A DNA stretch of 64,000 bases from Acidobacteriaceae bacterium TAA 166 (GTDB lineage: Bacteria; Acidobacteriota; Terriglobia; Terriglobales; Acidobacteriaceae). The notes under the pieces are model-generated. The model made no database searches, was not told where the DNA came from, and saw only the letters and a list, made by a program, of their open reading frames with translations. The stretch spans positions 1,666,001 to 1,730,000 of the forward strand of contig ATWD01000001.1 in NCBI GenBank assembly GCA_000421065.1, in the 5' to 3' direction. Every line of letters begins with the position of its first letter. Positions within the stretch are counted from its first letter, which is position 1. The position numbers were made by a program, and so were the translations under genes. Positions 30,409 through 62,512 of the stretch are shown here, in pieces.

Positions 30409-30975
30409 CTAGACCTTCGGAGACGACGGTTCATGTTCGCCCTCCGCAGTCGCGCGCTGTTGCAGAAAGCGCTCATGGCAGTTCGTGATCATCTGATGCG
30501 CGGCTGCGCTGTCCTTCCATCCCAGAGCCTTGGTTCGCTTTCCCTCGAGATCCTTGTAAATCGAGAAGAAATGCTCGATCTCACGGAGAAGATGAGGCAG
30601 GATCTCTCTGAAGCTCTCGATCTGGGCATAGCGTGGATTGCCGGTAGCGTAAGCCAAGATCTTCTCGTCAGGAATACCCTGATCGAGCATCTCGAACATG
30701 CCGATCGGGCGTGCATGGAAGACGCAGCCGGGAAAGGTCGGTGTTTCTCCGAGCACGAGGATATCTAGAGGGTCGCCGTCTTCGGCAAGTGTCTGGGGGA
30801 TGAAACCGTAATCGGCCGGATAATGGATGGGGGAATACAGATTTCGATCTAACCGAAAGACGTGTAGCTGCTTGTCATATTCGTACTTGTTCCCGCTGTC
30901 TTTCGGAATCTCGATGACCGCAGTCACTATCTCGGGTGACTGGTTGCCGATCGGAAGATGGAGATAATTGCTCAT
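30409..30975 (-). CDS. ppa: Inorganic pyrophosphatase (family I)
   Basis: Protein of 188 residues starting MSNYLHLPIGNQSPEIV; this Met has GAGGG seven bases upstream, better than the Met at 30990. Family I residues are seen in EIPKDSGNKYEYDKQL, SPIHYPADYGFIPQTLAEDGDPLDILVL (metal-binding Asp cluster), and the late ARY/KALGWKDS region. The enzyme hydrolyses pyrophosphate to drive biosynthesis and is a classical target of fluoride inhibition. A fluoride aptamer and terminator lie directly upstream, so this copy is made when fluoride is present. Confidence 0.95.
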   Translation of the reverse strand: MSNYLHLPIGNQSPEIVTAVIEIPKDSGNKYEYDKQLHVFRLDRNLYSPIHYPADYGFIPQTLAEDGDPLDILVLGETPTFPGCVFHARPIGMFEMLDQGIPDEKILAYATGNPRYAQIESFREILPHLLREIEHFFSIYKDLEGKRTKALGWKDSAAAHQMITNCHERFLQQRATAEGEHEPSSPKV

Positions 30976-31007
30976 TTGTGTCCCTCTCAAAATGAGTGCG
31001 GGAGCAC

Positions 31008-31039
31008 AAAAAAGACACTCCTACACAACGTGTAGGAGT
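31008..31039 (-). terminator. Riboswitch-controlled terminator before ppa
   Basis: On the - strand, ACTCCTACAC pairs with GTGTAGGAGT around a 3-base loop, followed by TTTTTT. The 5' arm is the same CTCCTAC segment that forms the aptamer pseudoknot, so fluoride binding should prevent terminator formation and turn ppa on. Confidence 0.85.
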
Positions 31040-31085
31040 CATCGGTCGTCCGTTTCGGAAGACGGTTTCGGCGGATTCCAGCGCC
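31032..31085 (-). promoter_or_regulatory. Fluoride riboswitch (crcB motif) upstream of ppa
   Basis: The - strand reads GGCGCTGGAATCCGCC (P1 hairpin), GAAACC, a second stem with loop, then CGATGACTCCTAC. This matches the crcB motif except that the invariant GATGG is GCTGG and the TGATGAC is CGATGAC: the two bases that form the A6-U38 tertiary pair in the published structure are both C. The terminator overlap supports a working switch. Confidence 0.85.
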
Positions 31086-31184
31086 GTCTGCTGAAACAAT
31101 CATAGCTCTAAGAGGACTTCTACTCAAGTTTGCCGGGTACCCTGGATCTTCATGTCCCAAGGCGCCATGTAGCAAGCGTAATGG

Positions 31185-32294
31185 CTAATCCATGCGCTGC
31201 ATGAGACGCTTTGCCAGAGATTTTCTCCCGTCTTTTGCAACCACCTCGCCGTCACGCAACCATGCCGGCAGTGGGAGGAGAAGATAGGAGGAAAGGCCTT
31301 GTAGCATCGGCTCGTAGGTGGTGCGCAGCATTCTCATGGTCTCTTCGACCTCGACGCCCCCCTTCCACTCAAACCCTGAAGCCACAAGCAGATCTGTCAA
31401 TCGCTCAAACTTCTCCGCAGGAAGTCGCCCATCGGGTTGTGGCTCGGGCTCTACATCTAAAGAGAGCCCGATTTCGACGAGCATGCGGCGAGCAGCGGCA
31501 AAGGTTCCACCAGCCTGAAGAGGCGACATGTTGTCGACCCCGGCTACGATGATCGTGCAGCAATCAAGAATGACCGCCAGGGATGCAAGCCAGGACTGTT
31601 TCTCGTGTTGCGATCGGTAAAAACCCAGCATGGGATAGGAAGAATGGCTTTCGATCAACTCTGCGGCCCAACTCTCCCACTCTCGAAGCCACTCATTCAA
31701 TTCGTCCAGATTTCCTTCCGTCCCGTATCGGGACAGCACGGTTCCTGCGGTCGGGGGTGAGCCGGCGCGTGCGTCCAACTGGATCAATTGCAGATCTCGT
31801 TGCGTAAAGTGGTGGTACAAGACCGGCAAGTAGCCAACCATCAGGCCGATGAAACCGAAGCCGATTCCCGCCTCGACGAAGATGAGAACATGGGAGCCAA
31901 ACGAACGGGGCGCCGGGGTCTCTGCTCCCAAGGTAAAGAAAGCGTCACCGCTCATGTATAGCTCGTGAGCAAGAGTCGTCGTCGCAGCAGAATTCCCGCT
32001 GACCTGAAGGGCGTAATGTAAGAAACCAAATCCGGCGATGAGGCCAACAGCCCAGCAGGCAAACAGCAATACCATCGACAAAGGACCGTAGATGCCGAGA
32101 AAGCTTTCACGAGCCGTCCCCACTGGAAGGAGAGCTCCCAAACGAGACCAGACTGCCCAGGTCGCCCGGTAGAAATAGTGCACAAATCGAAATTTGCGCT
32201 CCACACGTCTTGGAAGCAGGACGACCTCGAAGGCGTCCTGAAGGGAGGCCATGATCAGGATCAATCCAACGAATGCTGCAAGACGGTAGCTCAC
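31185..32294 (-). CDS. Potassium-channel-like membrane protein
   Basis: Protein of 369 residues. Transmembrane helices are visible near 1-20, 70-100 (LSMVLLFACWAVGLIAGFGFLHYAL) and 140-168 (VLIFVEAGIGFGFIGLMVGYLPVLY). Between the last two lies a pore-loop-like segment MSGDAFFTLGAETPAPRSFG, with TLGAE where potassium channels have TVGYG, so ion selectivity is uncertain. The C-terminal half is soluble. It lies downstream of the YkoP-like gene and its fluoride riboswitch, with a 400-base gap, so cotranscription is possible. Confidence 0.75.
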   Translation of the reverse strand: MSYRLAAFVGLILIMASLQDAFEVVLLPRRVERKFRFVHYFYRATWAVWSRLGALLPVGTARESFLGIYGPLSMVLLFACWAVGLIAGFGFLHYALQVSGNSAATTTLAHELYMSGDAFFTLGAETPAPRSFGSHVLIFVEAGIGFGFIGLMVGYLPVLYHHFTQRDLQLIQLDARAGSPPTAGTVLSRYGTEGNLDELNEWLREWESWAAELIESHSSYPMLGFYRSQHEKQSWLASLAVILDCCTIIVAGVDNMSPLQAGGTFAAARRMLVEIGLSLDVEPEPQPDGRLPAEKFERLTDLLVASGFEWKGGVEVEETMRMLRTTYEPMLQGLSSYLLLPLPAWLRDGEVVAKDGRKSLAKRLMQRMD

Positions 32295-32694: not shown

Positions 32695-33381
32695 CTACGG
32701 AAGGACGTGTATCGTCCTCCCATAGATGCGTAAGAAGTCGGATCTGGAGATCCAAAGCTCTGCTCGTCGTGGCGCTCGCTTTCCTTTCCGCACCCCATAT
32801 GGATGAAAGGCCCACATCAGTCCGCAGATGAGAAAATTCTCGAAGTAGTCGTGAACTTGCTGCGGGAGCGAGCGCTTCGGGTAGTGAATGGTAAAGCCAA
32901 GACCATGGAAGACCCTTTCCGCGCGGTCTAACGAGATCGTTAATGAGGCGTGGACTCCCTCGAAGTCCGCCAAATCGTCGTTGGCCATTGCCCAGTCGGC
33001 CAACAGCATGAGAGAAAAGCGAATCCTTCGTTGCAGGCAGAACCCCCAACCGAAGAGCTCATGTGGTCCCAGACAATGAATGAGGTGCTCGTTCCAAAAA
33101 TGTAATTCGAGTATCCTGTCGCCCGGCTCGATCACAATTGCATCGGGAAGAACAATCTCCGATGAGCAACTGTAGATGGATACCCTCAAGATGCAGTCGG
33201 AGCGCTGCGAAAACTCCCGTATGCCGGAGCAAAATCTCAATACTAGGTCGATGGCTCGCACTCCAGAGACGCCAACCTCCCGCGCATAGCGCGAGAAAGG
33301 TTCGGCAAATAAGCGCCAACGTACGGAGTTGCTGGATTGTATCGGGATGGAACTGGGCAGTTGTTTAGTGCGGCGTGACAT
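32695..33381 (-). CDS. YkoP-like domain protein
   Basis: Protein of 228 residues. The middle part reads AIVIEPGDRILELHFWNEHL, resembling the YkoP domain (GD.I.ELHLNNE pattern) found fused to or near polysaccharide deacetylases and of unknown biochemical role. No signal peptide. The start MSRRTKQLPS is chosen because GGAGGGG stands four bases before it; that site is enclosed in a hairpin formed with the end of the fluoride aptamer, which makes this the regulated start. Only first gene of its operon; the channel gene follows after 400 bases. Confidence 0.7.
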   Translation of the reverse strand: MSRRTKQLPSSIPIQSSNSVRWRLFAEPFSRYAREVGVSGVRAIDLVLRFCSGIREFSQRSDCILRVSIYSCSSEIVLPDAIVIEPGDRILELHFWNEHLIHCLGPHELFGWGFCLQRRIRFSLMLLADWAMANDDLADFEGVHASLTISLDRAERVFHGLGFTIHYPKRSLPQQVHDYFENFLICGLMWAFHPYGVRKGKRAPRRAELWISRSDFLRIYGRTIHVLP

Positions 33382-33403
33382 AGACCCCTCCTGACATGCA
33401 TCA

Positions 33404-33449
33404 GAAGGGGTCATCAGTCCGGGGACATTTCGGGGCGAACCCCATCGCC
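33404..33449 (-). promoter_or_regulatory. Fluoride riboswitch (crcB motif) with RBS-masking platform
   Basis: The - strand reads GGCGATGGGGTTCGCC, CCGAAAT, a minimal GTC-CCCG-GAC stem, then TGATGACCCCTTC. At 46 bases it is the shortest aptamer here. The pseudoknot strands have covaried: GGGG in the P1 loop faces CCCC where the others have CTCC. The distal GACCCCT then pairs with AGGGGTC (33383-33389), which contains the ribosome binding site of the YkoP-like gene, so control is translational. Confidence 0.9.
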
Positions 33450-33727
33450 ATTAACAAATCTCAGTTGACTCCAGAGGATGCCAGTTCCTTCCGGCCGTGT
33501 CAATAGCGTGTCCGCCTAACTCCCTGGTTCTCCAGAAGTGGCACTAACTCGACATCGGTTCAACCCGTGGCGATGAGACCTCCAGCCGACGGCAGGCCCC
33601 TGATCCCAGAAACCCGGTTGGGCTGCGAGCCGCAGGATTCCTCGGCCGAATCTTTCCGCGAGTTCGTCAGTGCTCCGGAAAAGGCTGGTGAACGCAACCT
33701 CCACACCAATTCAAAAGGAGTTTGAAA

Positions 33728-34000: not shown

Positions 34001-34176
34001 GATGTACTTCAGTTCGTTCCGAGAATGCCGGTCCACGACCCTTATCAAGGGGATGCAGTTATTTATTTCCTGGAGGATGGCCGAATAACGGCTCTTGAGC
34101 CGGCCGATATGTTGCAATCGCGTTAATCGTGCTGATACTATGGTGGCCGCATCGATTGATGTCAACCAGATGCGAC

Positions 34177-34257
34177 GGCGAAGGAGTTCGCCAAAACTGC
34201 TGTTCCATCCTGCTCCTTGATGGTCAGATGATGACTCCTGACGAGGCTCTCGTCGGG
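34177..34257 (+). promoter_or_regulatory. Fluoride riboswitch, GAAGG variant, with hairpin
   Basis: Aptamer 34177-34242: GGCGAAGGAGTTCGCC, AAAACTGCTG, a long second stem (CCATC with GATGG), CAGATGATGACTCCTGAC. GATGG is replaced by GAAGG, and the P2 closing pair becomes G-A (CAGA before TGATGAC); both changes recur in the aptamer at 61121. CCTGACGAG (34237-34245) pairs with CTCGTCGGG (34249-34257), but no T tract follows. It precedes the metallophosphoesterase/CFA-synthase operon. Confidence 0.82.
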
Positions 34258-34342: not shown

Positions 34343-35074
34343 ATGAAGATCGTTGTCATCTCTGATATCCACGCCAATCTGGCCGCCATCAAGGCTCTTC
34401 CCGAAGAGGAGTATGACTTGCTTTGGTGTCTTGGGGACCTGGTCGGGTATGGTCCTCGCCCCCACGAAACCGTTCGGTGGGCAAACAGCAATGTCGACGC
34501 GATCGTTCGTGGCAATCATGACCACGCCGCAGGATTTTCCGTAACTCCGGAGTGTTCGCCTGCTTTCCGAAATCTCGCGGCTGCCACGCACCACTATACC
34601 GAGGAGGCCTGCACCAGGGCGGATTGCGAATTTCTTCGCGGTCTGCCCCTCCGTAAGCAAATCATGATCGACGAAACAAAGTTTTATCTTGTGCACGCTT
34701 CTCCAATGGATCCTCTGTTTGGGTATCTTCCCGAAGACTCGGAGCAGTGCTGGAGCGAGCTGTACGGAGTCGATGCAGACGTTCTCTTTGTCGGGCATAC
34801 GCATAGACCCTTCATCCGGCAATTTGAAGGTTGCGTCGTAGTTGCCCCTGGCAGCATCGGGCAACCCAAAACGGGGCGCCCACTCGCCTGTTACGCGGTA
34901 TGGGAAGACGGGCAGATCGAGCTTAAGGAGTACGAGTACCCGATCGAAGAGACGATCGAGGAGATCGCCCAGATGCCTATTTCGGAACGCGATCGCCGGA
35001 CACTGGTTTCGATCCTTCGGACTGGCCAATTTCCTGCTCAACGAAATGAGTTGGGGATATCGATTGGCTCCTAG
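34343..35074 (+). CDS. Calcineurin-like metallophosphoesterase (YfcE/MJ0936 type)
   Basis: Protein of 243 residues with the full set of metallophosphoesterase motifs: SDIHANLAA (D8, H10), CLGDLVGYGP (GD), VRGNHDHA (GNHD), HASP, and FVGHTHRPF (GHTH). The family holds phosphodiesterases of broad specificity that use two metals such as Mn2+ or Ni2+. It is first in a five-gene operon after the GAAGG-type fluoride riboswitch. A likely role is hydrolysis of a phosphodiester or nucleotide during fluoride stress; the substrate is not readable. Confidence 0.88.
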   Translation: MKIVVISDIHANLAAIKALPEEEYDLLWCLGDLVGYGPRPHETVRWANSNVDAIVRGNHDHAAGFSVTPECSPAFRNLAAATHHYTEEACTRADCEFLRGLPLRKQIMIDETKFYLVHASPMDPLFGYLPEDSEQCWSELYGVDADVLFVGHTHRPFIRQFEGCVVVAPGSIGQPKTGRPLACYAVWEDGQIELKEYEYPIEETIEEIAQMPISERDRRTLVSILRTGQFPAQRNELGISIGS

Positions 35075-35105: not shown

Positions 35106-36389
35106 ATGATGCAGGTATCAGGAGAAGAGCAACGAACAAAAGTATTCAATAGCCTCTTCAGCAACTACGTTGGTCCGACATTTGCGGTTCATCTATGGGA
35201 TGGATGGCGCTGGCATTCTTCAGAGAACCAAAAGCCCGCATGCACGATTGAAGTCCTCAGTTCTGATGCTCTCGGCCTGCTGATTGAGAACCCCGATGAA
35301 GTCGGCCTTGGAGAGGCATTCATTCGGCGCGAAATCGATGTGAAGGGGGATCTCTTCTCGGTCTTCTCGGTCGGGGAGCATGTGTTAACCCGTCCCACCA
35401 CTCTTCGGCAAGAGCTCCTGCAGCGCCTCGCAGTCACTTTCGTGGGTGTCGGGAACCTGTTTCGCAAGGGTATGCGCCACTCGCTCTCGCGAGATCGTTC
35501 CGCAATCCAACACCACTATGATCAACCGTTCGAGTTTTACAAATCCTGGCTTGGAAAGACCTTGACGTATTCCTGCGCCTACTTCCACGAGGCCGAAGAA
35601 CCTCTGGACTCGGCTCAAGAGCACAAGATCGATCTGATCTGCCGTAAGCTTCGGCTTCAACCATTCGAACAATTTCTGGACATCGGATGCGGATGGGGCA
35701 GTCTCATCCTTCACGCGGCGAAAGAGTACGGAGCTTATGCGCAAGGGATCACGCTGAGCAAGGAGCAGGCGCGCGTGGCGGACGCACGTATCGAGGAAGC
35801 ACATCTTACCCAAAGCTGCAAGGTAGAGCTGCGGGATTACCGCACGCTCAACAAGGTGTCGCTCCCCTTTGACAAGATCGCGAGCGTCGGGATGTTCGAG
35901 CATGTTGGCCTGAAGAATCTACCCCAATACTTCAGTACGGTACGCCGGGTCCTCAAGCCCGGGGGCACCTTCCTCAATCATGGGATCGCCCGCGCCCATC
36001 ACTCTCCTGCGCGGAAGTCGTCGTTTATCGATCGCTACGTCTTTCCGGATGGAGAGCTGGTCACCCTGTCTCAGGCTCTTACGGCGGCTGAATCCGCGGG
36101 ATTTGAGGTAAGAGATGTCGAAAACCTGAGAGAGCATTACGACCTCACCCTCCGCCACTGGGTCGAAGAGCTTCAACGGCATGCTGATGTGGTTCTTGAA
36201 ACTGTGCCGGAGTCTACCTACCGGATCTGGCTTCTTTACATGGCCGGCTCCGCCGCTGCATTCAGGAGAGGTGACATTGAGCTCTACCAGACATTACTCA
36301 GTCGCACCGACCGGGGGCAGAGCCATCTGCCTTTGACGCGTGAGGACTGGTATCTTCCGTCCATTTGCGACGAGGGAATCAAAGTATGA
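35106..36389 (+). CDS. cfa: Cyclopropane-fatty-acyl-phospholipid synthase
   Basis: Protein of 427 residues; the start has AAGGAGG five bases upstream (a second ATG follows at once). The SAM-binding motif is DIGCGWGSLILHAAKEYG, followed by GITLSKEQ, the carbonate-site region VGMFEHVGLKNLPQYF, and ENLREHYDLTLRHWVEEL near the C-terminus, all typical of CFA synthases, which methylenate unsaturated acyl chains in membrane lipids. Cyclopropanation lowers proton permeability, which would limit entry of HF; that link is inference. ATGA overlap with the next gene. Confidence 0.92.
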   Translation: MMQVSGEEQRTKVFNSLFSNYVGPTFAVHLWDGWRWHSSENQKPACTIEVLSSDALGLLIENPDEVGLGEAFIRREIDVKGDLFSVFSVGEHVLTRPTTLRQELLQRLAVTFVGVGNLFRKGMRHSLSRDRSAIQHHYDQPFEFYKSWLGKTLTYSCAYFHEAEEPLDSAQEHKIDLICRKLRLQPFEQFLDIGCGWGSLILHAAKEYGAYAQGITLSKEQARVADARIEEAHLTQSCKVELRDYRTLNKVSLPFDKIASVGMFEHVGLKNLPQYFSTVRRVLKPGGTFLNHGIARAHHSPARKSSFIDRYVFPDGELVTLSQALTAAESAGFEVRDVENLREHYDLTLRHWVEELQRHADVVLETVPESTYRIWLLYMAGSAAAFRRGDIELYQTLLSRTDRGQSHLPLTREDWYLPSICDEGIKV

Positions 36390-37348
36390 ATGCAGCCACT
36401 CCGAACGCCTCTAATGAATCGATAGAGAGCCTGATTCGCGGGCTCGAATCGCTGCAGGACGGTGCGCGAGCAGAGAATATGCTCATCACTATCGGTCAGC
36501 CTGCGGTTCCTCACCTGACAGATTTTCTTCTGCACACACGCCCAAGGACGGTTGCCGAACCGCGCGTCAGAGCGGTACGCGCATTGGGAGCACTGGGAGC
36601 CTATCCTGCCCTGGTCAAGTATTTCCGCGAAGGCGAACTTGCCTCCGACGCGCAGGTACTCTTCGCGGAAGATGCGGTGCGCAGTGCCGTCGCCAACGAG
36701 CTCCTCCGTTGGAAGACTGAAGAGACGTTCAGCGTCCTGTTACAAGCCGCTGAACACCGCGCTACGGAAGGATTGCTGTTTGCATTCGGAGAGTTTTGCC
36801 GGCCGGAGAGTGTGCCTCTCCTGTTTCATTCTTTGGAGGACGACCTTTGCCGCGAAGCCGCGATGGCGGCATTGCGCAAGCTCCCGGAGCAAGCGCGAGC
36901 TTATGCGGTCCAGTCGCTAAAAGACCTGACGAACATTCAGATCCGAGGAGGAAATGCGCGATGGCGTTGCCGCGCCACCATGAAACTGCTGCGGGACCTG
37001 GGTGTATCGATGCATGACTGGCAAAAGATTCATGGCTTCCTCTTCGAGGAGGATGCCGGAATCGTGTTGAGTGCAGCGCAGATCGGCTTGAATGCCGCTC
37101 CACCGTCTGAATATCCGGCAATCTTGCAGGCAGTGATACGTGTTGCGGACCGCTTCAACTGTTTCGAGGAGCAGGAGGCTACGGACCTGTTCTTGTCGAG
37201 TGGTCCCCTGGCACGCAAAATGGCATCCCTCGCAGAACAACAACGCCTCGACCGTGGGGAAGAACCGCGCTGGCAGCTCCCGTCTTGGCGAATCCTACGA
37301 CATGTGATCGATGGAAGCAGCAAAGGGAGGCACTATGGAACCGCATAA
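36386..37348 (+). CDS. HEAT-repeat-like protein
   Basis: Protein of 320 residues made of paired helices: RVRAVRALGALGAYPALVKYF, EDAVRSAVANELLRWKTEETFSVLL, ESVPLLFHSLEDDLCREAAMAALRKLP. These fit HEAT or PBS-lyase-like repeats, which act as protein-protein scaffolds. No enzyme motif is visible. It overlaps its neighbours on both sides (ATGA upstream, 14 bases downstream), so it is certainly part of the operon. Confidence 0.75.
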   Translation: MNAATPNASNESIESLIRGLESLQDGARAENMLITIGQPAVPHLTDFLLHTRPRTVAEPRVRAVRALGALGAYPALVKYFREGELASDAQVLFAEDAVRSAVANELLRWKTEETFSVLLQAAEHRATEGLLFAFGEFCRPESVPLLFHSLEDDLCREAAMAALRKLPEQARAYAVQSLKDLTNIQIRGGNARWRCRATMKLLRDLGVSMHDWQKIHGFLFEEDAGIVLSAAQIGLNAAPPSEYPAILQAVIRVADRFNCFEEQEATDLFLSSGPLARKMASLAEQQRLDRGEEPRWQLPSWRILRHVIDGSSKGRHYGTA

Positions 37349-38150
37349 AATTCAGTTGCTAGTCTCTGACGTGGATGGGACCCTTCTTAACGCACAGAAG
37401 GAGTTGACCGAAGCGACGCGCAACGCGATCAAACGCCTGCGCGAGGCTGGTGTTCCTATGTCCCTGATCAGCTCCCGCCCAGCCCGAGGATTGAAATGGC
37501 TGATCGATGAACTTGAGTTGCAACATGCCTGCGCGGCCTTGAATGGGGGCGTGATCGTTGATCCCCAGTTGAATGTTCTCTCGACTTATCCTCTGCGCGC
37601 CGCATTGACCCAGGAGATTCTCGGCCTCATCGAGGCTCAAGGACTCACTCCCTGGGTCTATACCGAGACCAGTTGGTACGTGCCTGGGTTGGAGGCCGAA
37701 CACGTGCGCCACGAGATGAACGTCGTACGGTTTGATCCCCTGGTTTTCGAGACACTCGCGGATCTCGATGGACCGATCATCAAGATCACAGGAATCAGCG
37801 ACAATGACGCGGCGACCGTTGCCTGTCAGGATCGACTCAATCGCAAGTTCGGAGATCGCCTGTCGCTCTCGTGTTCTCTTCCGAATCGGTTGGAGATCAC
37901 ACATCATGACGCCAACAAAGGCAGTGCGATTGAAGTGATCGGTGCAACGAGCAACACAACTGCTGACGCGATTGCGACTGCCGGAGACGGTGAGAATGAC
38001 ATTCTAATGTTCCGAAAGAGTGGCTTCAGCATCGCCATGGGGCAGGCGCCGGTTGAAGTTCGGCGCGCCGCCAGTGTTACGGCGACCGCTAACTCTCAGG
38101 ATGGATTGGCCTGGGCCATCGAGGAATATCTTCTCAAGCACCGCGGATAG
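37335..38150 (+). CDS. Cof-type HAD-IIB phosphatase
   Basis: Protein of 271 residues; start chosen for the GGGAGG five bases upstream. HAD motifs: VSDVDGTLL (nucleophile Asp and general acid Asp), SLISSRPARG (motif II), ITHHDANKGSAIEVI (motif III Lys) and TAGDGENDILMFRKSG (motif IV). Cof-type enzymes dephosphorylate sugar phosphates, pyridoxal phosphate or flavin precursors. HAD enzymes mimic their transition state with fluoride-metal complexes, so extra copies under fluoride control make sense, but this is inference. Confidence 0.9.
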   Translation: MEPHKIQLLVSDVDGTLLNAQKELTEATRNAIKRLREAGVPMSLISSRPARGLKWLIDELELQHACAALNGGVIVDPQLNVLSTYPLRAALTQEILGLIEAQGLTPWVYTETSWYVPGLEAEHVRHEMNVVRFDPLVFETLADLDGPIIKITGISDNDAATVACQDRLNRKFGDRLSLSCSLPNRLEITHHDANKGSAIEVIGATSNTTADAIATAGDGENDILMFRKSGFSIAMGQAPVEVRRAASVTATANSQDGLAWAIEEYLLKHRG

Positions 38151-39124: not shown

Positions 39125-39185
39125 CTGTATCGTTTGCAGCGGCGAATCGCTTGATATAGAGACCAAACCTCCCTAGAATGGAGGA

Positions 39186-39239: not shown

Positions 39240-39263
39240 TAACCGGGTAGGAGTTTGTATTTT
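39231..39263 (+). terminator. Riboswitch-controlled terminator
   Basis: ACTCCTACC (39231-39239) pairs with GGTAGGAGT (39246-39254), followed by TTGTATTTT. Mutually exclusive with the aptamer pseudoknot. Confidence 0.85.
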
Positions 39264-54294: not shown

Positions 54295-54400
54295 TGAGGA
54301 TTTTCATTCCAAGTCTACATTGCGTTATTACCCGGGTCAACGACACGATAGACAGCTTTATCCCTTATTGAGCGGTATTCGTTCTCGCCCTCTACGGCGT

Positions 54401-55207: not shown

Positions 55208-55282
55208 GACTCCTGCGATCGTAGGAGTCATTAGCCTTCCATTTCGGAGGCAATCCGGAGAGCCGGGGCGGATTCCATCGCC
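55208..55282 (-). promoter_or_regulatory. Fluoride riboswitch with an extra hairpin in the junction
   Basis: Aptamer 55221-55282 on the - strand: GGCGATGGAATCCGCC, then an inserted CCGG-CTCT-CCGG hairpin, ATTGCC, a short GAAA-capped stem, and AAGGCTAATGACTCCTAC. The standard junction AACC is replaced by the insert plus ATT. TGACTCCTGC/GTAGGAGTCA (55207-55230) forms a near-perfect palindromic stem with no T tract. The TAATGAC variation is shared with the aptamer at 51346. Confidence 0.82.
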
Positions 55283-55349
55283 AATTAAGAGGTAGCATAG
55301 TCCGTCCGACATACGCAACGATATCGTCGATCTTCCGTTGAGTCAGGGG

Positions 55350-55630: not shown

Positions 55631-57283
55631 TCAGGTTAAAGCGGACACGCAGGACTGAAGCGCCTCAATCTTTCTCCGAAGTTGAACGTCCGTATCCGGT
55701 GTCTCTAACATCTTCACAAGCGTCTGGCGTGCGTCTTCGATCTGCGATGTGAGCGAGCGCTCCAATACCTGAAAGCTTCGCTCCATACGCTCCAGGTAAT
55801 CGAAGCGAATTCGTCCAGAGTTCCGGTCGAGCCTATCCGGCACGCTGGTCATCGCGCGTCGAAACACGACTGGACGTTGCAAGAAGGGAGGAAGAGCGAG
55901 GAGCAAACCATCGAGCGAGATGAAGATCCGCTCGACAGAATATGAGACCCTGCTGTCCATCGCCAGACCACAGTGGACCTGGAGCTTCGTCGGTGGCAAG
56001 TCGACCAGTGAGCTCATGCCCACAAAAAGCCTGTTCAAGATGGAGTTTGCTTTTTCCGTATATCTTGAGACGATCTCCTCAAGCAGCATGGATACTTGAG
56101 CGTCCTCCTGCATTCTCCAGTCGCGGAAGATTATGGCGACCTCTTTATTGAAAAACTCCTCAAGCAGCCTTCCCAGCGCTCGACCTGAAGAATGTGGATT
56201 CGCTTGTTTGAGACTCAAGAGGCGTTCTTCAAGATAGGGTGTCGACGTCTTGACGTGCATGTCGAGATCAATGCCGATCTTCTTCATCAGGCTAAGCCGT
56301 TCTTCTCGAAGTAAAGCCCGGATTGCGACCGTCTCTCTTTCCGTTTCGTTGAGGAGCTGCCGGATCTGCATTCGCTTGTCTTCGATTTCAACCGCCGTCA
56401 CAGCGGAGAACCTTTCACTCAGCGACAAAGCGAACGATGCAATATTGAGGGCTTGACCGGCGTCTCTAAGGATCGACATGAAAAGCGTCGCGTCGTGGCC
56501 ATACTTGGCGAAATGACGCAGATGTTGTTCGAAACGACACAATCCAGTCGAAGGTTTAGAACTCTCAATAGCCTCCTCGTAGAACCGCGTCGTCAGCGGA
56601 AATACATCGAAGTCCACCAAGCCAAGCCGATTCTTTAGTTCGTCTCGCAAAAAGGTGCAGGCAGCCTGCGCCTCGTCATCAGACACCAGGTCTACCTTAT
56701 TCAGAATGAACATGAGTCGCGGAATGTCTTTCTGGATATCACGGATGAAGTTTGCTTCTACTTCCGTAATAGGTGGGTCGATCGAGAAGACAATGATGGC
56801 AGCATCTACCCTCGATAAATAGCCCAGGGTTGCGAGGGTATTGTGCGAATAGGTAGAGCCAAAGCCTGGCGTATCCACGAGGACAAGGCCATCCTGCAAG
56901 AGTTGACTAGGGTAGAACAGTTGGAGGGAACCCACCCCCTTACGGTTCCCCGGATTTCTCGCCTCCGTGACATACTCTACGATCTCGGAGAGTGCTATCT
57001 CCTCTACGACAGAACCACGTTGATAATGGACGTTGGCTTTCGGAACTGCTCCGTACCGGATTTCGGTGACAACGGAGGTCAGAGGAAGAACTCCTGTTGG
57101 CAGAATTCTTTCACCGAGCAATGCGTTGAGAAGCGAGCTCTTGCCGCGTTTCATCTGTCCAAGGACTGCCAGGCGAACTTCATCTGCCCTAAGCTTCTCC
57201 TTTAAGTCGAGGATCGCCGGCCGCAGCCGCTGTAGCGAACTGGATTCAAAAGTGCCGGAGATCTCGTCGAGAAGAGCCTCCAT
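55631..57283 (-). CDS. Dynamin-like GTPase B
   Basis: Protein of 550 residues starting MEALLDEISGTFESSSLQRL, with AAGGG five bases upstream. GTPase motifs: VLGQMKRGKSSLLNALLG (G1), LPLTSVVTEIRYG (G2), LVDTPGFGS (G3), ILNKVDLV (G4). The rest (about 240-550) is alpha-helical with long amphipathic coils, as in the stalk of bacterial dynamins. These proteins remodel or protect membranes and often come as pairs that hetero-oligomerise. Its partner is the 709-residue GTPase at 58860 in the same operon. Confidence 0.9.
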   Translation of the reverse strand: MEALLDEISGTFESSSLQRLRPAILDLKEKLRADEVRLAVLGQMKRGKSSLLNALLGERILPTGVLPLTSVVTEIRYGAVPKANVHYQRGSVVEEIALSEIVEYVTEARNPGNRKGVGSLQLFYPSQLLQDGLVLVDTPGFGSTYSHNTLATLGYLSRVDAAIIVFSIDPPITEVEANFIRDIQKDIPRLMFILNKVDLVSDDEAQAACTFLRDELKNRLGLVDFDVFPLTTRFYEEAIESSKPSTGLCRFEQHLRHFAKYGHDATLFMSILRDAGQALNIASFALSLSERFSAVTAVEIEDKRMQIRQLLNETERETVAIRALLREERLSLMKKIGIDLDMHVKTSTPYLEERLLSLKQANPHSSGRALGRLLEEFFNKEVAIIFRDWRMQEDAQVSMLLEEIVSRYTEKANSILNRLFVGMSSLVDLPPTKLQVHCGLAMDSRVSYSVERIFISLDGLLLALPPFLQRPVVFRRAMTSVPDRLDRNSGRIRFDYLERMERSFQVLERSLTSQIEDARQTLVKMLETPDTDVQLRRKIEALQSCVSALT

Positions 57284-57347
57284 CGCAACCCTTCGATCTG
57301 TTGTTTTCTCACCCACGAAATGGGGTCTCTCGCGCCTTCCACAGTTC

Positions 57348-57689
57348 TTACCTGGGAGAAGCAGTAAATAGGACGACATGAACATCGGAGATCGCTACAA
57401 TTCCTTCGGCGACCATAGAATCAAGGTGAGGCAACAACGACTCCACCTGCAGTGGAGTGTCGATCACGCTGACCATGATGGGAGCGTCTTTTGAGAAGGG
57501 CCAGCTCCTTGAGTGATGTATACGCGCACTGGTCCCGAAGCCTTCCAGTCCCCGGTAAACCGTTACACCCGCAATGCCTAACTCCAGACATTTGGCGAGG
57601 ATTGCTTCGTGGACCGGCCTGTCGTGCCATTTGTCAGATTCACTTAAATGGATACGCACCATCTTGGCTTCAAATTCCTTCTTAGCCAT
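57348..57689 (-). CDS. DUF190 protein
   Basis: Protein of 113 residues, single DUF190 domain: RIHLSESDKWHDRPVHEAILAKCLELGIAGVTVYRGLEGFG and HSRSWPFSKDAPIMVSVIDTP. DUF190 has a PII-like ferredoxin fold and is very often encoded with crcB, so it probably takes part in fluoride handling; PII likeness suggests ligand sensing. It lies two bases after the tandem DUF190 gene. Confidence 0.9.
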   Translation of the reverse strand: MAKKEFEAKMVRIHLSESDKWHDRPVHEAILAKCLELGIAGVTVYRGLEGFGTSARIHHSRSWPFSKDAPIMVSVIDTPLQVESLLPHLDSMVAEGIVAISDVHVVLFTASPR

Positions 57690-57690
57690 A

Positions 57691-58413
57691 TCAACCTCCT
57701 TCTTCTGTTGCTTCTCCAGGGGCCGCGCTGCCGTATCTGTACTTGATGATGTCGACGTCCGAGGTTACGGCCATCCCCTCGCGCACCATCTTTTCGAGCA
57801 CTGGCATGAAAGCTGCGATCCGGTCCTCGCAGTCGATGACCGAAAGCATCAGGGAGGCATTATGGGACATCGTCTTTTGCTCATGCAACTCGCGATGCAC
57901 TCCGTAGCCAAGGATGCCCTTGTAGACGGTGACGCCGGCCATGTCATTGGCACGTAGAGCCTCGACAAGCGCCTCATGAAGTGGTTTGCCGTCCCATCGA
58001 TCTGCTTCATCGATGTAGATACGCAGCAGCTTCGCCTTGCCTGAAACCTTCCGATGGGGGAGTTCGATGTCGGGGCTTACCTTCACAAGCGCAGGCTTCG
58101 CGATGAAAGTCTCCTGAATCTCAATCATTCCTGGGCCAGCGAGTTCCGAGAGTTTCCCCAACAGCTCGTCGACTTTTTCTTTCGTTTCGATAAACTCGAT
58201 CTTCACAGGAAGGCGGTCCGATAGCTCGACGGTCGATGCGGTATGCAGGTGATGGTCTGCTCCGAAGCCTGCAACTCCTTTCAGAACGGTTGCTCCGGAT
58301 ACGCCGCGATAAAACAGGAAATCCAGGATGCTCGCTTCCGTCGCAGCGCCATGGTGGGTGGACCCTTCGCTGAGATAGATCGATACTTTGAGTGCTTTGC
58401 CGGCTTCTAACAT
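57691..58413 (-). CDS. Tandem DUF190 protein
   Basis: Protein of 240 residues made of two DUF190 repeats: ALKVSIYLSEGSTHHGAATEASILDFLFYRG...GVAGFGADHHLHT (1-110) and KLLRIYIDEADRWDGKPLHEALVEALRANDMAGVTVYKGILGYG (about 128-220). The second repeat is closer to the separate single-domain protein that follows, pointing to duplication and fusion within the operon. Likely acts with CrcB as a PII-like subunit or sensor. Confidence 0.9.
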   Translation of the reverse strand: MLEAGKALKVSIYLSEGSTHHGAATEASILDFLFYRGVSGATVLKGVAGFGADHHLHTASTVELSDRLPVKIEFIETKEKVDELLGKLSELAGPGMIEIQETFIAKPALVKVSPDIELPHRKVSGKAKLLRIYIDEADRWDGKPLHEALVEALRANDMAGVTVYKGILGYGVHRELHEQKTMSHNASLMLSVIDCEDRIAAFMPVLEKMVREGMAVTSDVDIIKYRYGSAAPGEATEEGG

Positions 58414-58475
58414 TGATACCTCCTGCTACTACGGAAACGTCTCAGCCATGACGAGCCATGCGAGAACGTTGTTTC

Positions 58476-58856
58476 TTAGTGCGAGAACGCTTTTGCCAAA
58501 GCGACCCCGAGTGCCACAGCGACCAGACCAGAGATCAGGCTGACGGTGACATAAAGAATGGCAATCCAAAACGTACCGTGACTCAGGTTAGAGAAGGTCT
58601 CCCATTCGAAAGTCGAAAAGGTCGAGTATGCCCCGACAAAGCCGATGGGAACCAGGAAGCGCCAGGACGGACTGAGATCTGCATGATGGTTCAGAAACTC
58701 CAACGACAAGCCGATGATGAAACAAGCTGTGATGTTGATAACTAACGTTCCATAGGGAAACCGGGTACCCATCCGGCCGGCTACGGTCGTGCCGACCCAA
58801 AAGCGAGCTGCCGAACCTAGTGCGCCGCCAAGCATGATGAAGAGATACTTCTGCAA
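58476..58856 (-). CDS. crcB: Fluoride channel CrcB/FluC
   Basis: Protein of 126 residues with four membrane helices and the family signatures GGALGSAARFWVG, FPYGTLVINITACFIIG (conserved Asn), and GFVGAYSTFSTFEWE (the polar track phenylalanines and Thr/Ser). FluC works as a dual-topology dimer that lets F- leak out. The start is a TTG with GGAG eight bases upstream, four bases after the stop of dynamin A, so translation is coupled. Enclosed between dynamin and DUF190 genes and behind a fluoride riboswitch. Confidence 0.96.
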   Translation of the reverse strand: MQKYLFIMLGGALGSAARFWVGTTVAGRMGTRFPYGTLVINITACFIIGLSLEFLNHHADLSPSWRFLVPIGFVGAYSTFSTFEWETFSNLSHGTFWIAILYVTVSLISGLVAVALGVALAKAFSH

Positions 58857-58859
58857 GAT

Positions 58860-60989
58860 TTATGCTCCTATCTGTTGAGCAATTTCTTTAGGATCTCTGC
58901 CAGAATCCGTCCATTGCTGCAAAAGTTCAAGATCCTGCTTCATCTTAGTGATATCCGATTCGGCGCTGCTGTGTCCGCTCAACTCCTGAATCTCGGCGCG
59001 GTAACCGTCAGCATAGGAGCTGATCAGAAGTTCCAGCCGCTGGCTGAATTGACGCATCCACTGCCAGAGCACATGACTGTAGTCTTCCAACTCATGCTTG
59101 AGCAAAGCGTAGGTCGCGCGGTGTAGCTTCTTTCGGATCTGAGCTCGCATGATGACCGTTCCAAACGCTGCCCAAAGGCCCACATCGATGTCGTTGGGGA
59201 GCGTTGCGATCTCGAATCGGGGCATGTCCCGTAGAAGCGAATCGAGATCCTTCTCGTCGGGAACATCCACGCGGCCGAGATCTTGAGCGACATTCCTTAG
59301 ACGAGATATTGCGTCTTTTCCGACCTCGCGTGCCGCTGTCGTAAGAGGCTCGATCTGACTGCTGACAGCGGTATGCAACATCTCCGAGAGGTCCATCGAT
59401 TGCAACGTGTTCTGGTTCGTCTGGCGGAGCGCGTTCGTTGCTTCATCAGCAACTTGAGTGAGCACTGAATCAGCAGCCCCCCTTATCTCATTGACTTGCC
59501 GATCGAGCGACGCGGCCAACACGCCGACACGCCCTGTAATGTCCCGTAGAGCCGCCTCCTGTTTCGACAGATCTCCAGTGTTGGAGACGTCGTGTCTCTC
59601 CTGTCTCGTGATTCGAGAACGCAAAGTCGAAATCAACGCGTGTCTCAGGAGTTCAACCTTACGGCTCACGGACTCATCTCTGAGCCTGCGCGCCTGCTGG
59701 AAACGGGGAAGGAGTTCCTGCTGAAAGAATTGATCCAAAAGGGCGGCGGAGCCAGGCATCGCGCTAACAGCATGTACGGCGATATCGCGATGCAGCTCGC
59801 GCCTGAGCTGCTCCTGAATGTACGAGACCGCATGCTCCAGATCGCTCTCGCTGAGTAAATCAGATTTGCTGAGCAGCACGAGCGATGGAATTCCAGCCTC
59901 TTCGATGATGCGCAGTGTCCCGACGTCCTCCTCGTTCAGTGTGCTTCCAGCGTCGACGAGGACGAGGGCAAGATCGCAGGACGGCAGATAGGCAAGCGTC
60001 TCCGCCGCTCCGCGTTTCGCCAGCGAGCCGAGGCCCGGGGTGTCTACAAGAACGATCCCTTCACTGAGCCTGTCCGAGGGAACCTGGATCATGGCCCGGG
60101 CAACATTCTTTTGGTTTCCGGGATTACCTCGTTCGGAGACCAGATCGGCAAACTCCTGGATGGAGACTTCATGCTCGGAGCCAGTGCCAAAGGTCACGAC
60201 GGCTTTAACGGCTGGGCCGTATTGCAATCGCGTAGGCACGGCTGTGATCGGATTGATTCCGACAGGCAATAAATCGTGACCCAGCAATCGGTTCAGCAAG
60301 GAGGACTTGCCGGAGCTGACCCTCCCGAACAAAGCGACCTCGAAGTTATTGTCTTCTAACCGTGACGTCAAGCCGTCAAGACGAGGTCTGAACTCGACCA
60401 TGCCATGTCGGGTAGCGATCTCTTCCACCATACGAAGCAGCTGAACCTCATGGCCTGCCGCCTCCAGATGATCAAACCGCACCTTCAGGTTGGAGTTCTG
60501 TCCTTGATAGATGTAGCTACTGAGCCCCTCGGAAAGCGCTCGCAGTTCGCGGACAACGCCCGTGAGCTCGAGTGCGACCTCTGGCGCCACGCTTCCGGAA
60601 CCACGCATCGTGCTGGGACGGAGCTCATCCAAGGCAATATCAACGAACGTGGTCCGGGCAATAATGGCCCGTGTGGCGGGGATCGTCGGAGCAGGAATAT
60701 CGATGTGTTGCCAGGCAAGCGTCCGGATCAACTGTGTTCGAAGACGGCGGATATAGTCCTCGATCACCCTGATCTGTGCGGGGCTCAGATCCAGAATGTA
60801 TTTGGGAAAGGGTGACTTTGAGCTTGCAGATTGCAGGATTTCTTCGATTCCCTCCAGCAGGTCATCAATGTGCTGACAACTCACGCGGAGGTACAGCTGC
60901 TGTGAGCTGTTCATAGACCCCGTCGCCTCGTTGCTCGAAAGTGGAGTGCCTGCGGGATCTGATTGCGGATTTGTACTGATTTCTGTCAT
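58860..60989 (-). CDS. Dynamin-like GTPase A
   Basis: Protein of 709 residues starting MTEISTNPQSDPAGTPLSS; this ATG has GCGGAG seven bases upstream. The N-terminal 190 residues are helical; then the GTPase domain: VALFGRVSSGKSSLLNRLLG (G1), NPITAVPTRLQYG (G2), VLVDTPGLGSLA (G3), LLSKSDLL (G4). A long helical stalk follows with two weakly hydrophobic patches near 610-660 that may touch membrane. First gene of the operon dynamin A-crcB-DUF190x2-DUF190-dynamin B, 130 bases after a fluoride riboswitch. Confidence 0.9.
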   Translation of the reverse strand: MTEISTNPQSDPAGTPLSSNEATGSMNSSQQLYLRVSCQHIDDLLEGIEEILQSASSKSPFPKYILDLSPAQIRVIEDYIRRLRTQLIRTLAWQHIDIPAPTIPATRAIIARTTFVDIALDELRPSTMRGSGSVAPEVALELTGVVRELRALSEGLSSYIYQGQNSNLKVRFDHLEAAGHEVQLLRMVEEIATRHGMVEFRPRLDGLTSRLEDNNFEVALFGRVSSGKSSLLNRLLGHDLLPVGINPITAVPTRLQYGPAVKAVVTFGTGSEHEVSIQEFADLVSERGNPGNQKNVARAMIQVPSDRLSEGIVLVDTPGLGSLAKRGAAETLAYLPSCDLALVLVDAGSTLNEEDVGTLRIIEEAGIPSLVLLSKSDLLSESDLEHAVSYIQEQLRRELHRDIAVHAVSAMPGSAALLDQFFQQELLPRFQQARRLRDESVSRKVELLRHALISTLRSRITRQERHDVSNTGDLSKQEAALRDITGRVGVLAASLDRQVNEIRGAADSVLTQVADEATNALRQTNQNTLQSMDLSEMLHTAVSSQIEPLTTAAREVGKDAISRLRNVAQDLGRVDVPDEKDLDSLLRDMPRFEIATLPNDIDVGLWAAFGTVIMRAQIRKKLHRATYALLKHELEDYSHVLWQWMRQFSQRLELLISSYADGYRAEIQELSGHSSAESDITKMKQDLELLQQWTDSGRDPKEIAQQIGA

Positions 60990-61095
60990 CGCATTCTCCG
61001 CCAACTTCCATTCACGCAGTCAATATTCCGGCAGCCGTGACTCCACGCCGGCAGATGAAAGCGTTCGATTGTGAAGGGATCTTGTCGAGGCGAAG

Positions 61096-61178
61096 AACCT
61101 CCTCGGCAGGGGATCCCTGCGAGGAGTCATCATCTGTCTCCCGGAAGAGACAGCAGTTAAGGGTGAACTCCTTCACCC
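61096..61178 (-). promoter_or_regulatory. Fluoride riboswitch, GAAGG variant, of the dynamin-crcB operon
   Basis: Aptamer 61121-61178 on the - strand: GGTGAAGGAGTTCACC, CTTAACTGCTGTCTC-TTCC-GGGAGACAG, ATGATGACTCCTCG. Same GAAGG and CAGA changes as the aptamer at 34177. CTCCTCGCAGGG then pairs with CCCTGCCGAGGAG (61097-61109), giving a strong stem. No clear T run follows. The start codon lies about 100 bases on. Confidence 0.85.
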
Positions 61179-61374
61179 GCTAACCATCTGCAACTACTTG
61201 ATATTGAGATGCCCACCTTTGTCAAGGAGTTCTCTGAGCATCCGTTCAGATCGATTGGCCAGAAAGCCAGCCTTTCGACAATAGCCCGGAGACTTTCGGC
61301 TGCTGGCGATAACGTCAGGGGTGCTTGTCTTGACAAGGCGCGGGCATAAATCTACACTTGCGCCCGACAGTTTC

Positions 61375-61420
61375 AGGGATGAAGCCCCTCACCGCCGACA
61401 GGCTGATGGCTTCTGCGGAA
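61375..61420 (+). promoter_or_regulatory. Probable recoded fluoride riboswitch
   Basis: AGGGATGAAGCCCCT, CACCGCC, GACA, GGCTGATGGCTTCTGC. The GATG in the first loop, ACCGCC junction and GCTGATGG all match the crcB motif, and the pseudoknot strands are GAAGCC with GGCTTC, a full covariation from the GGA.TC/GACTCC type used by the others. CTTCTGCGGAAG makes a small hairpin after it. It is divergent from the aptamer at 61121. The only + strand gene beyond it starts at 61898, so the target is uncertain. Confidence 0.6.
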
Positions 61421-61897
61421 GTGCGATGGACCTAGCATCTGCACTTGCACGGAGGTTCGCTTGACGGTGAGTCCCATCAAACCCCTTCAACACGCTTGTC
61501 ACTCGATGATTCTCGATGCAGCCTGTCCCGCTGCACAGTTTCATGGATGGCTTGTCGGCTTCACGCTTACGTCCTTTTTTTCACGTCCAGATCCCATCCG
61601 CCCAGCCCCTTTGGATCGATCCGGGGTATCCGCAGTATCGATTTGCGTTCCTGCGCGTTGGCGCGATTCCTTTGTAGGAAGTCTGCATCCTCCGTAATCC
61701 AGCGCGGATTTTCGGCTAGCTCACCTCTCGCCCAACGGCACAGTTTTGGATCTCATAGCCCCGATTCAAACTCATTCCGGTCTGCTGGTTGTACGAACCG
61801 ACTGTGAATGCCTGCTCGATGAGCGCAGAGAGTCCACGGACGGATCGGGGCAAAAGAATCGCAACTATCTTTCGTTGCACAAGGAGAGGTGAATCAA
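61421..61897. other. Region without a supported gene
   Basis: Nearly 480 bases between the recoded aptamer and the acetate-transporter-like gene. Short + strand frames (61445-61807 and 61461-61697) overlap each other, are rich in Ser/Arg and show no family features. This may be a decayed gene or a long leader. Confidence 0.4.
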
Positions 61898-62512
61898 ATG
61901 CACAGTAAATCTAGAGCGACAATAACCACCACCATCGGATTCATGTGTCTGGCGCTAACCGATTGGATGCTTTCGATGTCGAATGCGGCCTGGTTCCCTC
62001 GAACCTATGGCCATGGAATGGCGATGTTATATCCCTTAGGGATCGTCCTTGGGGTGATGGGTATTTTGGCCTTCATCGAGGAACGAGGTCTTGATGCCAT
62101 CATCTTCTTTGGCGGAGCCGGGTTGTTCTGGTCGACGCATCTCTATCTGTCGACGACAAGCGATGGTTCCTCTATGGAGCCAGGGAGCTATGCCGGATGG
62201 TTCCTTTTTATCTGGGCCGTATTTTTCTGTTACGTCTGGTTTGGCTCATTCAAGAGTGGAGTTATCCGCTTCCTGTTCCTTTTGGGTACGTGGCTTTCAC
62301 TGCTTGCCCTGGCTATCGGCAATTGGGGTGACGGACATCGCTTCGGGCACGGTTTCATCGTGCTCGGGGGCTATATCGGGCTAGCAACGGCGATTCTCGC
62401 AGCAATCACGTCTGCCTGGAGCGTCATCGGCCACGGGGTAAAAGTCGATGACCGGGGCCATGACTCGCTGTTGCATAAGGAGGAGCTCAAAACCAGAGAG
62501 GCCATTGGCTAG
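61898..62512 (+). CDS. GPR1/FUN34/YaaH (SatP-like) acetate/succinate transporter family protein
   Basis: Protein of 204 residues with AGGAGAGG before its ATG. Six membrane helices: ATITTTIGFMCLALTDWMLS, MAMLYPLGIVLGVMGILAFI, LDAIIFFGGAGLFWST, AGWFLFIWAVFFCYVWFGSF, FLFLLGTWLSLLALAIGNW, and GGYIGLATAILAAITSAW, in the order seen in SatP. The canonical NPAPLGL motif at the start is not conserved, so substrate is uncertain; a weak-acid or acetate channel is likely. A recoded fluoride aptamer lies 480 bases upstream. Confidence 0.8.
   Translation: MHSKSRATITTTIGFMCLALTDWMLSMSNAAWFPRTYGHGMAMLYPLGIVLGVMGILAFIEERGLDAIIFFGGAGLFWSTHLYLSTTSDGSSMEPGSYAGWFLFIWAVFFCYVWFGSFKSGVIRFLFLLGTWLSLLALAIGNWGDGHRFGHGFIVLGGYIGLATAILAAITSAWSVIGHGVKVDDRGHDSLLHKEELKTREAIG

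Follow-up and report, generated by a model that had tools for sequence, protein, structure and literature searches.

Introduction

Fluoride riboswitches (the crcB motif) are described, in passages of two sources on the motif, as RNAs whose pseudoknot competes with a terminating stem and whose genes are activated by the ligand (PMC13273304, PMC2864571). Among their already known gene associates are exporters and pyrophosphatase, enolase, HAD-type and formate hydrogenlyase genes, according to PMC11139923, and mutS and K+ transport genes, according to PMC2864571. Related systems have been described. At least 10 fluoride riboswitches are credited to the genome of Methylobacterium extorquens DM4 in a passage of PMC6785547 that cites an earlier paper, and E. 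cloacae carries GI3, a horizontally acquired island in which, by the account in parts of PMC5533749, an exporter with a spare enolase and pyrophosphatase is riboswitch-controlled and was fluoride-induced in experiments. Here, we analyze a 64,000-nucleotide stretch (hereafter, the window) of Acidobacteriaceae bacterium TAA 166 (assembly GCA_000421065.1, contig ATWD01000001.1, positions 1,666,001 to 1,730,000, forward strand). Its sequence makes it very probable that the window holds a fluoride-resistance island whose predicted transcription units are almost all led by riboswitches of their own and whose whole set is likely co-induced by fluoride.

Results

Fluoride aptamers in the window and the genome

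A covariance search with RF01734 (gathering score 34 bits) returns 11 matches in the window, on both strands, from 31026 to 61422 (30.4 kb). Nine are above threshold at 34.6 to 56.3 bits, and two are below it, 61122(-) with 31.0 bits (E 6e-5) and 61366(+) with 25.3 bits (E 0.005). Between 29000 and 64000, every match at E <=2 belongs to the fluoride riboswitch family (n = 11). A previous sequence-only reading of this DNA had claimed about eleven crcB aptamers, and all 11 sites that it named are RF01734 matches; it had set at least nine above-threshold matches against two or fewer as the outcomes of an Rfam search, and we count nine among the 11. Two further aptamers lie just outside the window end, at window coordinates 66567(-) (32.6 bits, sub-threshold) and 66829(+) (57.4 bits), which brings the total to 13 in 35.9 kb. 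The genome (6.14 Mb, three contigs) contains 20 matches, 16 of them above threshold, with scores of 25.3-57.7 bits. Besides the 11 in the window and the two at 66567 and 66829, these comprise a group of five at 147-161 kb and single sites on the rest of contig 1 and on contig 2.

The largest RF01734 count among 150 relatives is six, and this genome still yields 20 in the same search, which used stricter filters. The 61 congeners (G001-G061, by kinship labels) have zero to three matches each, with none in 12. An aptamer search of 395 genomes of the phylum scored 12 candidates per genome (this genome shows 12 there), so counts above 12 would be missed in it.

Given the short motif and the two window sites under the gathering score, one might regard most of these matches as chance hits. 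We consider this exceedingly improbable. E-values extend to 1e-13, nine of the 11 window matches stand above threshold, the aptamers covary (see below), and when 19 positions were drawn at random on the contig 20,000 times, no draw placed more than five in 36 kb or came near the observed clustering. Moreover, 80 kb of neighboring chromosome (L022-L024, L029) contains no match at E <=0.5 to R1, our own covariance model, which was built from 61114..61186 among others.

Structure, covariation, and expression platforms

When the 20 aptamers are aligned, 95.0% of the cells in P1 and 90.8% of those in the six-pair pseudoknot are paired. The whole structure is 90.1% paired vs 84.7% in shuffles, a percentage that on its own leans towards structure because the structure was drawn from known family features. 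Compensatory cells are stronger evidence: changes on both sides occur at four of the six pseudoknot pairs and at eight of 14 pairs overall. None of 500 shuffles reached four of the five structure measures, and 70 reached the fifth (further pair types); sliding the partner strands lowers pairing to 32-51%. The 3' strand of the pseudoknot is ACUCC in 17 of the 20 aptamers. At 33398 the pseudoknot is GGGGU/ACCCC and at 61366 it is GAAGC/GCUUC, where two pairs are altered on both sides relative to the commonest letters, so that 61366, the weakest aptamer, is probably real. The long-range pair, which in the published structure adjoins the ligand site, is A-U or U-A in 19 of 20 aptamers (A-U in 18).

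Most leaders can also form a rival hairpin that uses the 3' strand of the pseudoknot. Its equal is found in at most 2% of 400 downstream shuffles for 14 of the 20 leaders and in at most 9% for 18, with a 3'-strand pattern that was widened after a narrower one missed the leader at 155906. The hairpin is terminator-like, being followed by a U-rich run, at 31026, 39177, 51340, and 155906, and the rival strand includes an AGGAG resembling a ribosome-binding site (RBS) just before the start codon at 33398, 54234, 148421, C2:195572, and C1:3415535; one or the other platform is thus assignable in nine of 20 leaders. Within 90 nt upstream, hexamers that resemble promoters score 141.4 in sum over the 20 leaders, vs a mean of 119.8 and a maximum of 129.1 in 200 shuffles, which for the set as a whole is in line with separate transcription starts. 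No sigma-54 promoter pattern occurs in the 200 nt scanned upstream of each aptamer.

Predicted targets in the window

Genes and starts were taken from our own gene caller and from open reading frame lists, and genes were assigned to aptamers by order, strand, and distance; the fraction of 400 given with an aptamer refers to shuffles that reach its rival hairpin. On the minus strand, an inorganic pyrophosphatase (30409..30975; PF00719, E 2e-57) is the predicted target of aptamer 31026..31094 (RF01734, 34.8 bits), whose terminator-like hairpin (0/400) is followed by TCTTTTTTG. Also on this strand, aptamer 33398..33458 (42.9 bits; 0/400), whose rival strand overlaps the RBS, would control a YkoP-domain protein (32695..33381; PF22790, E 3e-13), whose start was read from AGGAGGGGTCTATG. 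The unit possibly includes a potassium-channel-like protein (31185..32294), which has no Pfam match and matches at 87% a protein named two pore domain potassium channel family.

Three leaders on the plus strand follow. Aptamer 34168..34247, a GAAG variant (34.6 bits; 36/400), precedes a calcineurin-like phosphoesterase (34343..35074; PF12850, E 6e-23), the cyclopropane fatty acid (CFA) synthase CFA1 (35106..36389; PF02353, E 4e-92), a HEAT-repeat protein (36386..37348; PF13646, E 2e-6), a HAD-type hydrolase (37335..38150; PF08282, E 4e-51), and a 300-residue protein without an assigned family (38222..39124; no Pfam or NCBIfam match, seven homologues among the matches listed, itself included). 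Aptamer 39177..39244, with a terminator-like hairpin (56.3 bits; 1/400), precedes a LysR-type regulator (39301..40335; PF03466, PF00126) and a Si-specific NAD(P) transhydrogenase of the SthA type (40434..41828; NF003585, 649.7 bits, cut-off 465). Aptamer 41961..42038 (50.8 bits; 4/400) precedes a second CFA synthase, CFA2 (42132..43481; PF02353, E 3e-48), and a 181-residue protein without an assigned family (43475..44020; no Pfam or NCBIfam match).

The next units return to the minus strand. Aptamer 50923..50987 (53.8 bits; 32/400) leads a unit (44186..50907) encoding an outer-membrane protein, an HlyD adaptor, an RND pump, and a beta-propeller-like protein (PF02321, PF16576, PF00873), the last with a PF25174 match far under the cut-off; the first start of this unit is uncertain (50766 or 50907). 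Aptamer 51340..51408 (42.4 bits), whose terminator-like hairpin (24/400) is followed by ATTTTCTTTTG, stands before a 40-residue MFS transporter small subunit (51129..51251; NF047966, 37.7 bits, cut-off 24) for which one homologue was found. Aptamer 54234..54303 (41.9 bits; 0/400), whose rival strand overlaps the RBS of a TTG start, leads a CLC-F fluoride/proton antiporter (52447..54222; PF00654). The best solved structure for this protein is 6d0j (E 6e-60) vs ClcA chains at E 1e-10 or weaker, which places it closer to characterized CLC-F; its best named matches are from Granulicella, Edaphobacter, and Acidobacteria, and it has a weak C-terminal DUF190 match (PF02641, just under the cut-off). 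A 184-residue protein (51795..52349), with no Pfam or NCBIfam match and one distant match beside an aptamer elsewhere, possibly belongs to the same unit. Aptamer 55215..55291 (37.5 bits; 1/400) precedes an AAA-type ATPase (54401..55168; PF13401 and others).

The sub-threshold GAAG variant at 61114..61186(-) (RF01734 31.0 bits over 61122-61177; 50.1 bits with R1) leads a unit (55631..61004) that opens with a dynamin-like GTPase (58860-61004; PF00350) and continues on the same strand with CrcB/FluC (58476-58856; PF02537; TIGR00494 104.2 bits, cut-off 80.45), a DUF190 protein (57691-58413; PF02641), and a second dynamin-like GTPase (55631-57283; PF00350). A third dynamin-like GTPase has its C-terminal part, with a DUF6062 match (PF19538), at 63274..64000(-) and runs to 64986, with PF00350 at C1:1730366-1730842; it shares a unit with an enolase behind aptamer 66567(-). 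The three dynamins score 95-108 bits with Dynamin_N, covering profile positions 1-168, 2-167, and 1-147 of 168. On the plus strand, the weak aptamer 61366..61422 lies 467 nt from a membrane protein with distant acetate-transporter similarity (61889..62512; NF038013 E 1.8e-6, under the cut-off). The gene caller placed no gene in the interval 61423-61888, and it is uncertain which gene this aptamer controls. The protein list of the sequence-only reading (CLC-F, CrcB, pyrophosphatase, two CMAS/CFA synthases, transhydrogenase, RND pump, and dynamins) was confirmed by family and structure searches.

Targets beyond the window

The same reading had proposed a dense fluoride regulon with an aptamer for nearly every operon; our analysis supports this and extends it, since the genome holds 20 aptamers and the targets continue past the window end. 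Just beyond it are the dynamin with DUF6062, the enolase, and a Hyf-like complex followed by a dehydratase gene. The second cluster, at 147-161 kb, contains genes for MlaE, MFS, ChrB-like, cation-efflux, and phosphate-transporter proteins, a second pyrophosphatase, a second phosphoesterase, DUF211, a GDSL lipase, and a MutS pair. Enolase occurs in the genome in a second copy (62% identical), and pyrophosphatase in four, two of them aptamer-led; the only full-length CMAS matches are the two island copies, with two partial ones on contig 2.

Recurrence of the targets beside aptamers in other Acidobacteriota

We searched 60 riboswitch loci of other Acidobacteriota, hand-picked so as to favor loci with several aptamers or on long contigs, with 49 proteins of both clusters. 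A gene was counted as near an aptamer if it lay on the same strand, downstream, and within 7 kb. R1 gave 90 matches in these loci at E <=0.05, of which 89 were used and the weakest (19.4 bits, L124) was dropped. Because the loci were chosen around aptamers, the comparison measures position relative to aptamers and not genome-wide frequency. All matches to CrcB (32/32), CLC-F (16/16), DUF190 (18/18), MFS (6/6), AAA (7/7), HyfC (4/4), and HEAT (3/3) are near aptamers, as are nine of 10 for enolase, four of five for phosphoesterase, and 20/21, 22/23, and 21/22 for the three dynamins (largely the same genes). Smaller counts come from the MutS proteins (1/1 and 2/2, one locus), each pyrophosphatase (1/1), SthA (1/1, 6.3 kb away), and DUF211, whose single match is not near an aptamer (0/1). 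Among 54 control genes from between the clusters, three of 49 matches are near aptamers. The 60 loci contain no match to the 369-residue protein, the beta-propeller, outer-membrane, 40-residue, and 204-residue membrane proteins, the dehydratase, or the MlaE, ChrB, cation-efflux, phosphate-transporter, and 92-residue proteins.

Dynamin-like proteins behind fluoride aptamers

The position of dynamins was followed further in 70 full-length domains (>=57 bits) from the 150 relatives and 395 phylum genomes, own genome excluded; the two sets overlap (25 and 46 domains, one shared), and 70 is a lower bound, as at most 22 (relatives) and 8 (phylum) candidates were scored per genome. Of the 70, 55 follow a fluoride aptamer on their own strand, at a median distance of 690 bp and a maximum of 4.9 kb, and aptamer-linked dynamins are present in 42 of the 49 dynamin-bearing genomes; the baseline is the control genes above. 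Among the 55 linked aptamers, 40 score above the Rfam threshold, five are weaker RF01734 matches, and 10 were found with R1 alone; 13 of the links (11 phylum, two relatives) were placed after regions had been fetched for holding dynamins. By their position, dynamin-like proteins are strongly tied to fluoride aptamers. A literature search found, in the collection searched, no paper joining fluoride riboswitch and dynamin, with none among the matches listed in a wider search, and none joining fluoride, cyclopropane fatty acid, and riboswitch.

The 15 unlinked dynamins include two that start at a contig start (G100, G196) and one that follows an enolase match close to the start of a contig (G315). 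Also among them are tandem clusters in G049, G271, G206, and G496, so the fluoride response does not take in every acidobacterial dynamin. In the congener G049 (C5:150001-168000, L180), three same-strand dynamins stand without a leading aptamer, the best R1 match being 13.7 bits on the other strand; this trio is a different dynamin system and serves as a contrast case.

Assembly of the array

Aptamers 55215, before the AAA gene, and 152386, before the second pyrophosphatase, are 94% identical over 68 nt only, and the genes are unrelated. By pairwise identity, the closest relative of 10 of the 20 own aptamers is another aptamer of this genome, which supplied 20 of the 145 aptamers compared; the enolase leader and others have their closest leaders in other genomes. 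At C2:195572-195641 (L027:9572-9641), a well-conserved aptamer precedes a CLC-F gene that survives only as fragments, beside a gene that from its sequence we take to be uvrB. A CLC-F match of 409-424 residues lies beside the uvrB-like gene in five of 24 relative loci, all five from congeners, and elsewhere this genome encodes CLC-F intact in two copies that share 75% identity; the ancestral exporter at C2 appears to have decayed. These comparisons show local copying of aptamers for part of the set. The island probably arose through horizontal transfer of units made up of an aptamer and its gene, together with local copying of aptamers before new genes.

The same observations invite a different account, in which the array is partly passive: rearrangements would have copied aptamers along with promoters, and several would have ceased to switch their genes. 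Identity confined to the aptamer before unrelated genes, nearest relatives within the genome for half of the set, four sub-threshold copies, and an intact aptamer before a decayed CLC-F would all fit. Nevertheless, we find this account unlikely: most copies retain both the pseudoknot and the rival-hairpin pairing, and the pseudoknots at 33398 and 61366 carry compensatory changes, which suggests selection.

A tRNA-Val gene (ARAGORN; L026:1853-1929, window coordinate 161.9 kb) with an integrase gene beside it was considered as a boundary and rejected; the tRNA ends do not recur in 200 kb, and no island boundary is claimed. The region L026:1853-4903 (161.9-164.9 kb) contains this tRNA-Val, then an integrase called in two pieces and a TrbI match, and is probably a remnant of another mobile element, adjacent to the second cluster of aptamers.

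Left of the aptamers, G+C is 0.605 in 1-12000 and 0.535 in 12001-30000. The interval 1270-9085 encodes a RecA-like protein, a Y-family polymerase, a 1058-residue protein that we take from its sequence to resemble DnaE2, and then ParB: a mutagenesis cassette with plasmid-like neighbors. By Pfam, 14919-26669 encodes a sigma factor, a TonB-type receptor, an S9 peptidase, and asparagine-synthase-like and phosphotransferase-like proteins, presumably a lasso-peptide cluster with its isopeptidase. Left of the window, L029:16934-19831 combines SIR2-like, nSTAND ATPase, and TPR proteins in a defense-like architecture.

Discussion

With its own riboswitch at nearly every unit, a rise in cytoplasmic fluoride would likely switch on the whole set. 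Without fluoride, the aptamer 3' strand (ACUCC) would pair with a downstream partner such as GGAGU, leaving a terminator formed or the RBS covered; with Mg-fluoride bound, the strand would be held in the pseudoknot and the gene expressed. CLC-F and CrcB would then export fluoride, the extra enolase and pyrophosphatases could substitute for inhibited enzymes, and the transhydrogenase and Hyf-like complex may adjust redox and proton balance. The CFA synthases and dynamin-like GTPases would likely limit or repair membrane damage and restrict entry of hydrogen fluoride (HF).

Several observations weigh against this interpretation. Four of the genome's 20 aptamers (61122, 61366, and two outside the window) are under the Rfam threshold, and one pseudoknot pair is non-standard in eight of 20. 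The pyrophosphatase aptamer 31026 has C and C in place of the long-range A-U pair, and the usually conserved GAUG deviates in six of 20 aptamers, 31026 included; since 31026 and five others depart from GAUG, their affinities may differ. No convincing rival hairpin was found at 66567 (110/400 shuffles) or 61366 (246/400), and the best -10-like hexamer is more than 50 nt from the aptamer in four leaders. We found no integrase or repeat bounding the island. CFA1, CFA2, the YkoP, HAD, and LysR proteins, and the 300- and 181-residue proteins have no match in the 60 loci, and matches near aptamers are few for RND (1/7), HlyD (1/6), and the sigma-54 regulator (0/3).

These last counts, particularly for YkoP, LysR, HAD, the 300-residue protein, and RND, could mean that the locus is a series of separately useful single-riboswitch operons without an integrated function, in which only exporters, enolase, and pyrophosphatase matter and other genes are bystanders. 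Against this stand the dynamins, the MutS pair, the Hyf complex, and the MFS, AAA, and DUF190 proteins, which recur beside aptamers elsewhere, and the cfa gene behind crcB and an aptamer on a Burkholderia plasmid (see below). We therefore think it improbable, slightly more so than a partly passive array, and favor a co-induced island.

Fluoride toxicity restricts work on organofluorine degradation, and to our knowledge bacterial survival of fluoride by means other than export is poorly known. With 11 sensors in one locus and 20 in the genome, the array amounts to a list of genes that one cell likely places under fluoride control, and the comparison with other Acidobacteriota and with the Burkholderia plasmids sorts recurrent partners (dynamins, enolase, pyrophosphatase, the MutS pair, the Hyf-like complex, DUF190, MFS, and AAA) from local ones. 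The sequence-only reading had foreseen a large list of new fluoride-response candidates. A list does emerge, with dynamins first, then the CFA synthases, then proteins without aptamer neighbors elsewhere, but it is shorter than was foreseen because many targets had been associated with fluoride riboswitches before. Should the dynamin link prove functional, bacterial dynamins would gain a defined inducer and a testable role.

Relation to known systems

Plasmid searches with the dynamin and with CLC-F led to the same three Burkholderia records, two of which were examined. The B. cenocepacia plasmid NZ_CP073671, typed as conjugative, has 11 aptamers of 48.8 to 58.1 bits in 30.7 kb, and the B. multivorans plasmid NZ_CP143553 has 10 above-threshold aptamers in ~31 kb, one of them leading crcB and an annotated cfa; scores on the two plasmids run from 46.9 to 58.1 bits. 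Like the island, these plasmids encode CLC-F, CrcB, DUF190, two pyrophosphatases, two enolases, a MutS pair, a Hyf complex, a dynamin, and MFS; for CFA, there is the annotated gene in B. multivorans and a two-piece unannotated match in B. cenocepacia. Unlike the island, they are plasmid-borne, belong to Pseudomonadota, and have no SthA, YkoP, LysR, or RND match. The proteins of island and plasmids are related but diverged; identity is, for example, 74% for HyfC, 53-56% for enolase, 40-54% for MutS, and 26-28% for the dynamin. A 41-kb stretch of a Caballeronia plasmid carries three aptamers with MutS, Hyf, and CLC-F. On a Lichenicola plasmid, a dynamin adjoins an aptamer-led crcB in the opposite direction, and so is not behind that aptamer.

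Uniqueness of the locus is rejected by the 11 and 10 aptamers over overlapping gene sets on the Burkholderia plasmids: the idea that this would be one of the densest riboswitch regulons in a single locus holds as to a dense regulon, but the locus is not the sole one. Because overlapping gene sets with aptamers occur on plasmids of Pseudomonadota, the fluoride-defense kit crosses phyla, and its gene content suggests that it is likely shared and exchangeable across distant bacteria. A further step, which we put forward tentatively and with a little less than even confidence, is that such islands are exchanged across phyla with an aptamer plus its gene as the unit, and that dynamins with CFA synthases form a hitherto unrecognized core arm of fluoride defense that rebuilds and repairs the bilayer, through which HF enters.

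The aptamers of this genome have the sequence, P1, P3, pseudoknot, and terminator overlap of the fluoride riboswitch; they differ from the typical case in number, 20 matches in one genome, and in the GAUG variants of six. M. extorquens DM4, whose riboswitch count reportedly goes back to Baker et al. 2012, belongs to another phylum. It is similar in having many fluoride riboswitches in one genome, as stated in the passage concerned of PMC6785547. E. cloacae GI3 differs in the parts of PMC5533749 that describe it: one riboswitch and one operon are described, the island genes as described include no CLC-F, dynamin, Hyf, CFA, or MutS, and its RND pump genes were not fluoride-induced (0.9- and 1.4-fold). 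A fluoride-riboswitch regulon on an exchangeable island is of a kind that has precedents in DM4 and GI3. As far as our searches show, what is new is its extent in an acidobacterium, the sharing of a multi-riboswitch kit with plasmids from a different phylum, and the link by position between dynamins and fluoride aptamers.

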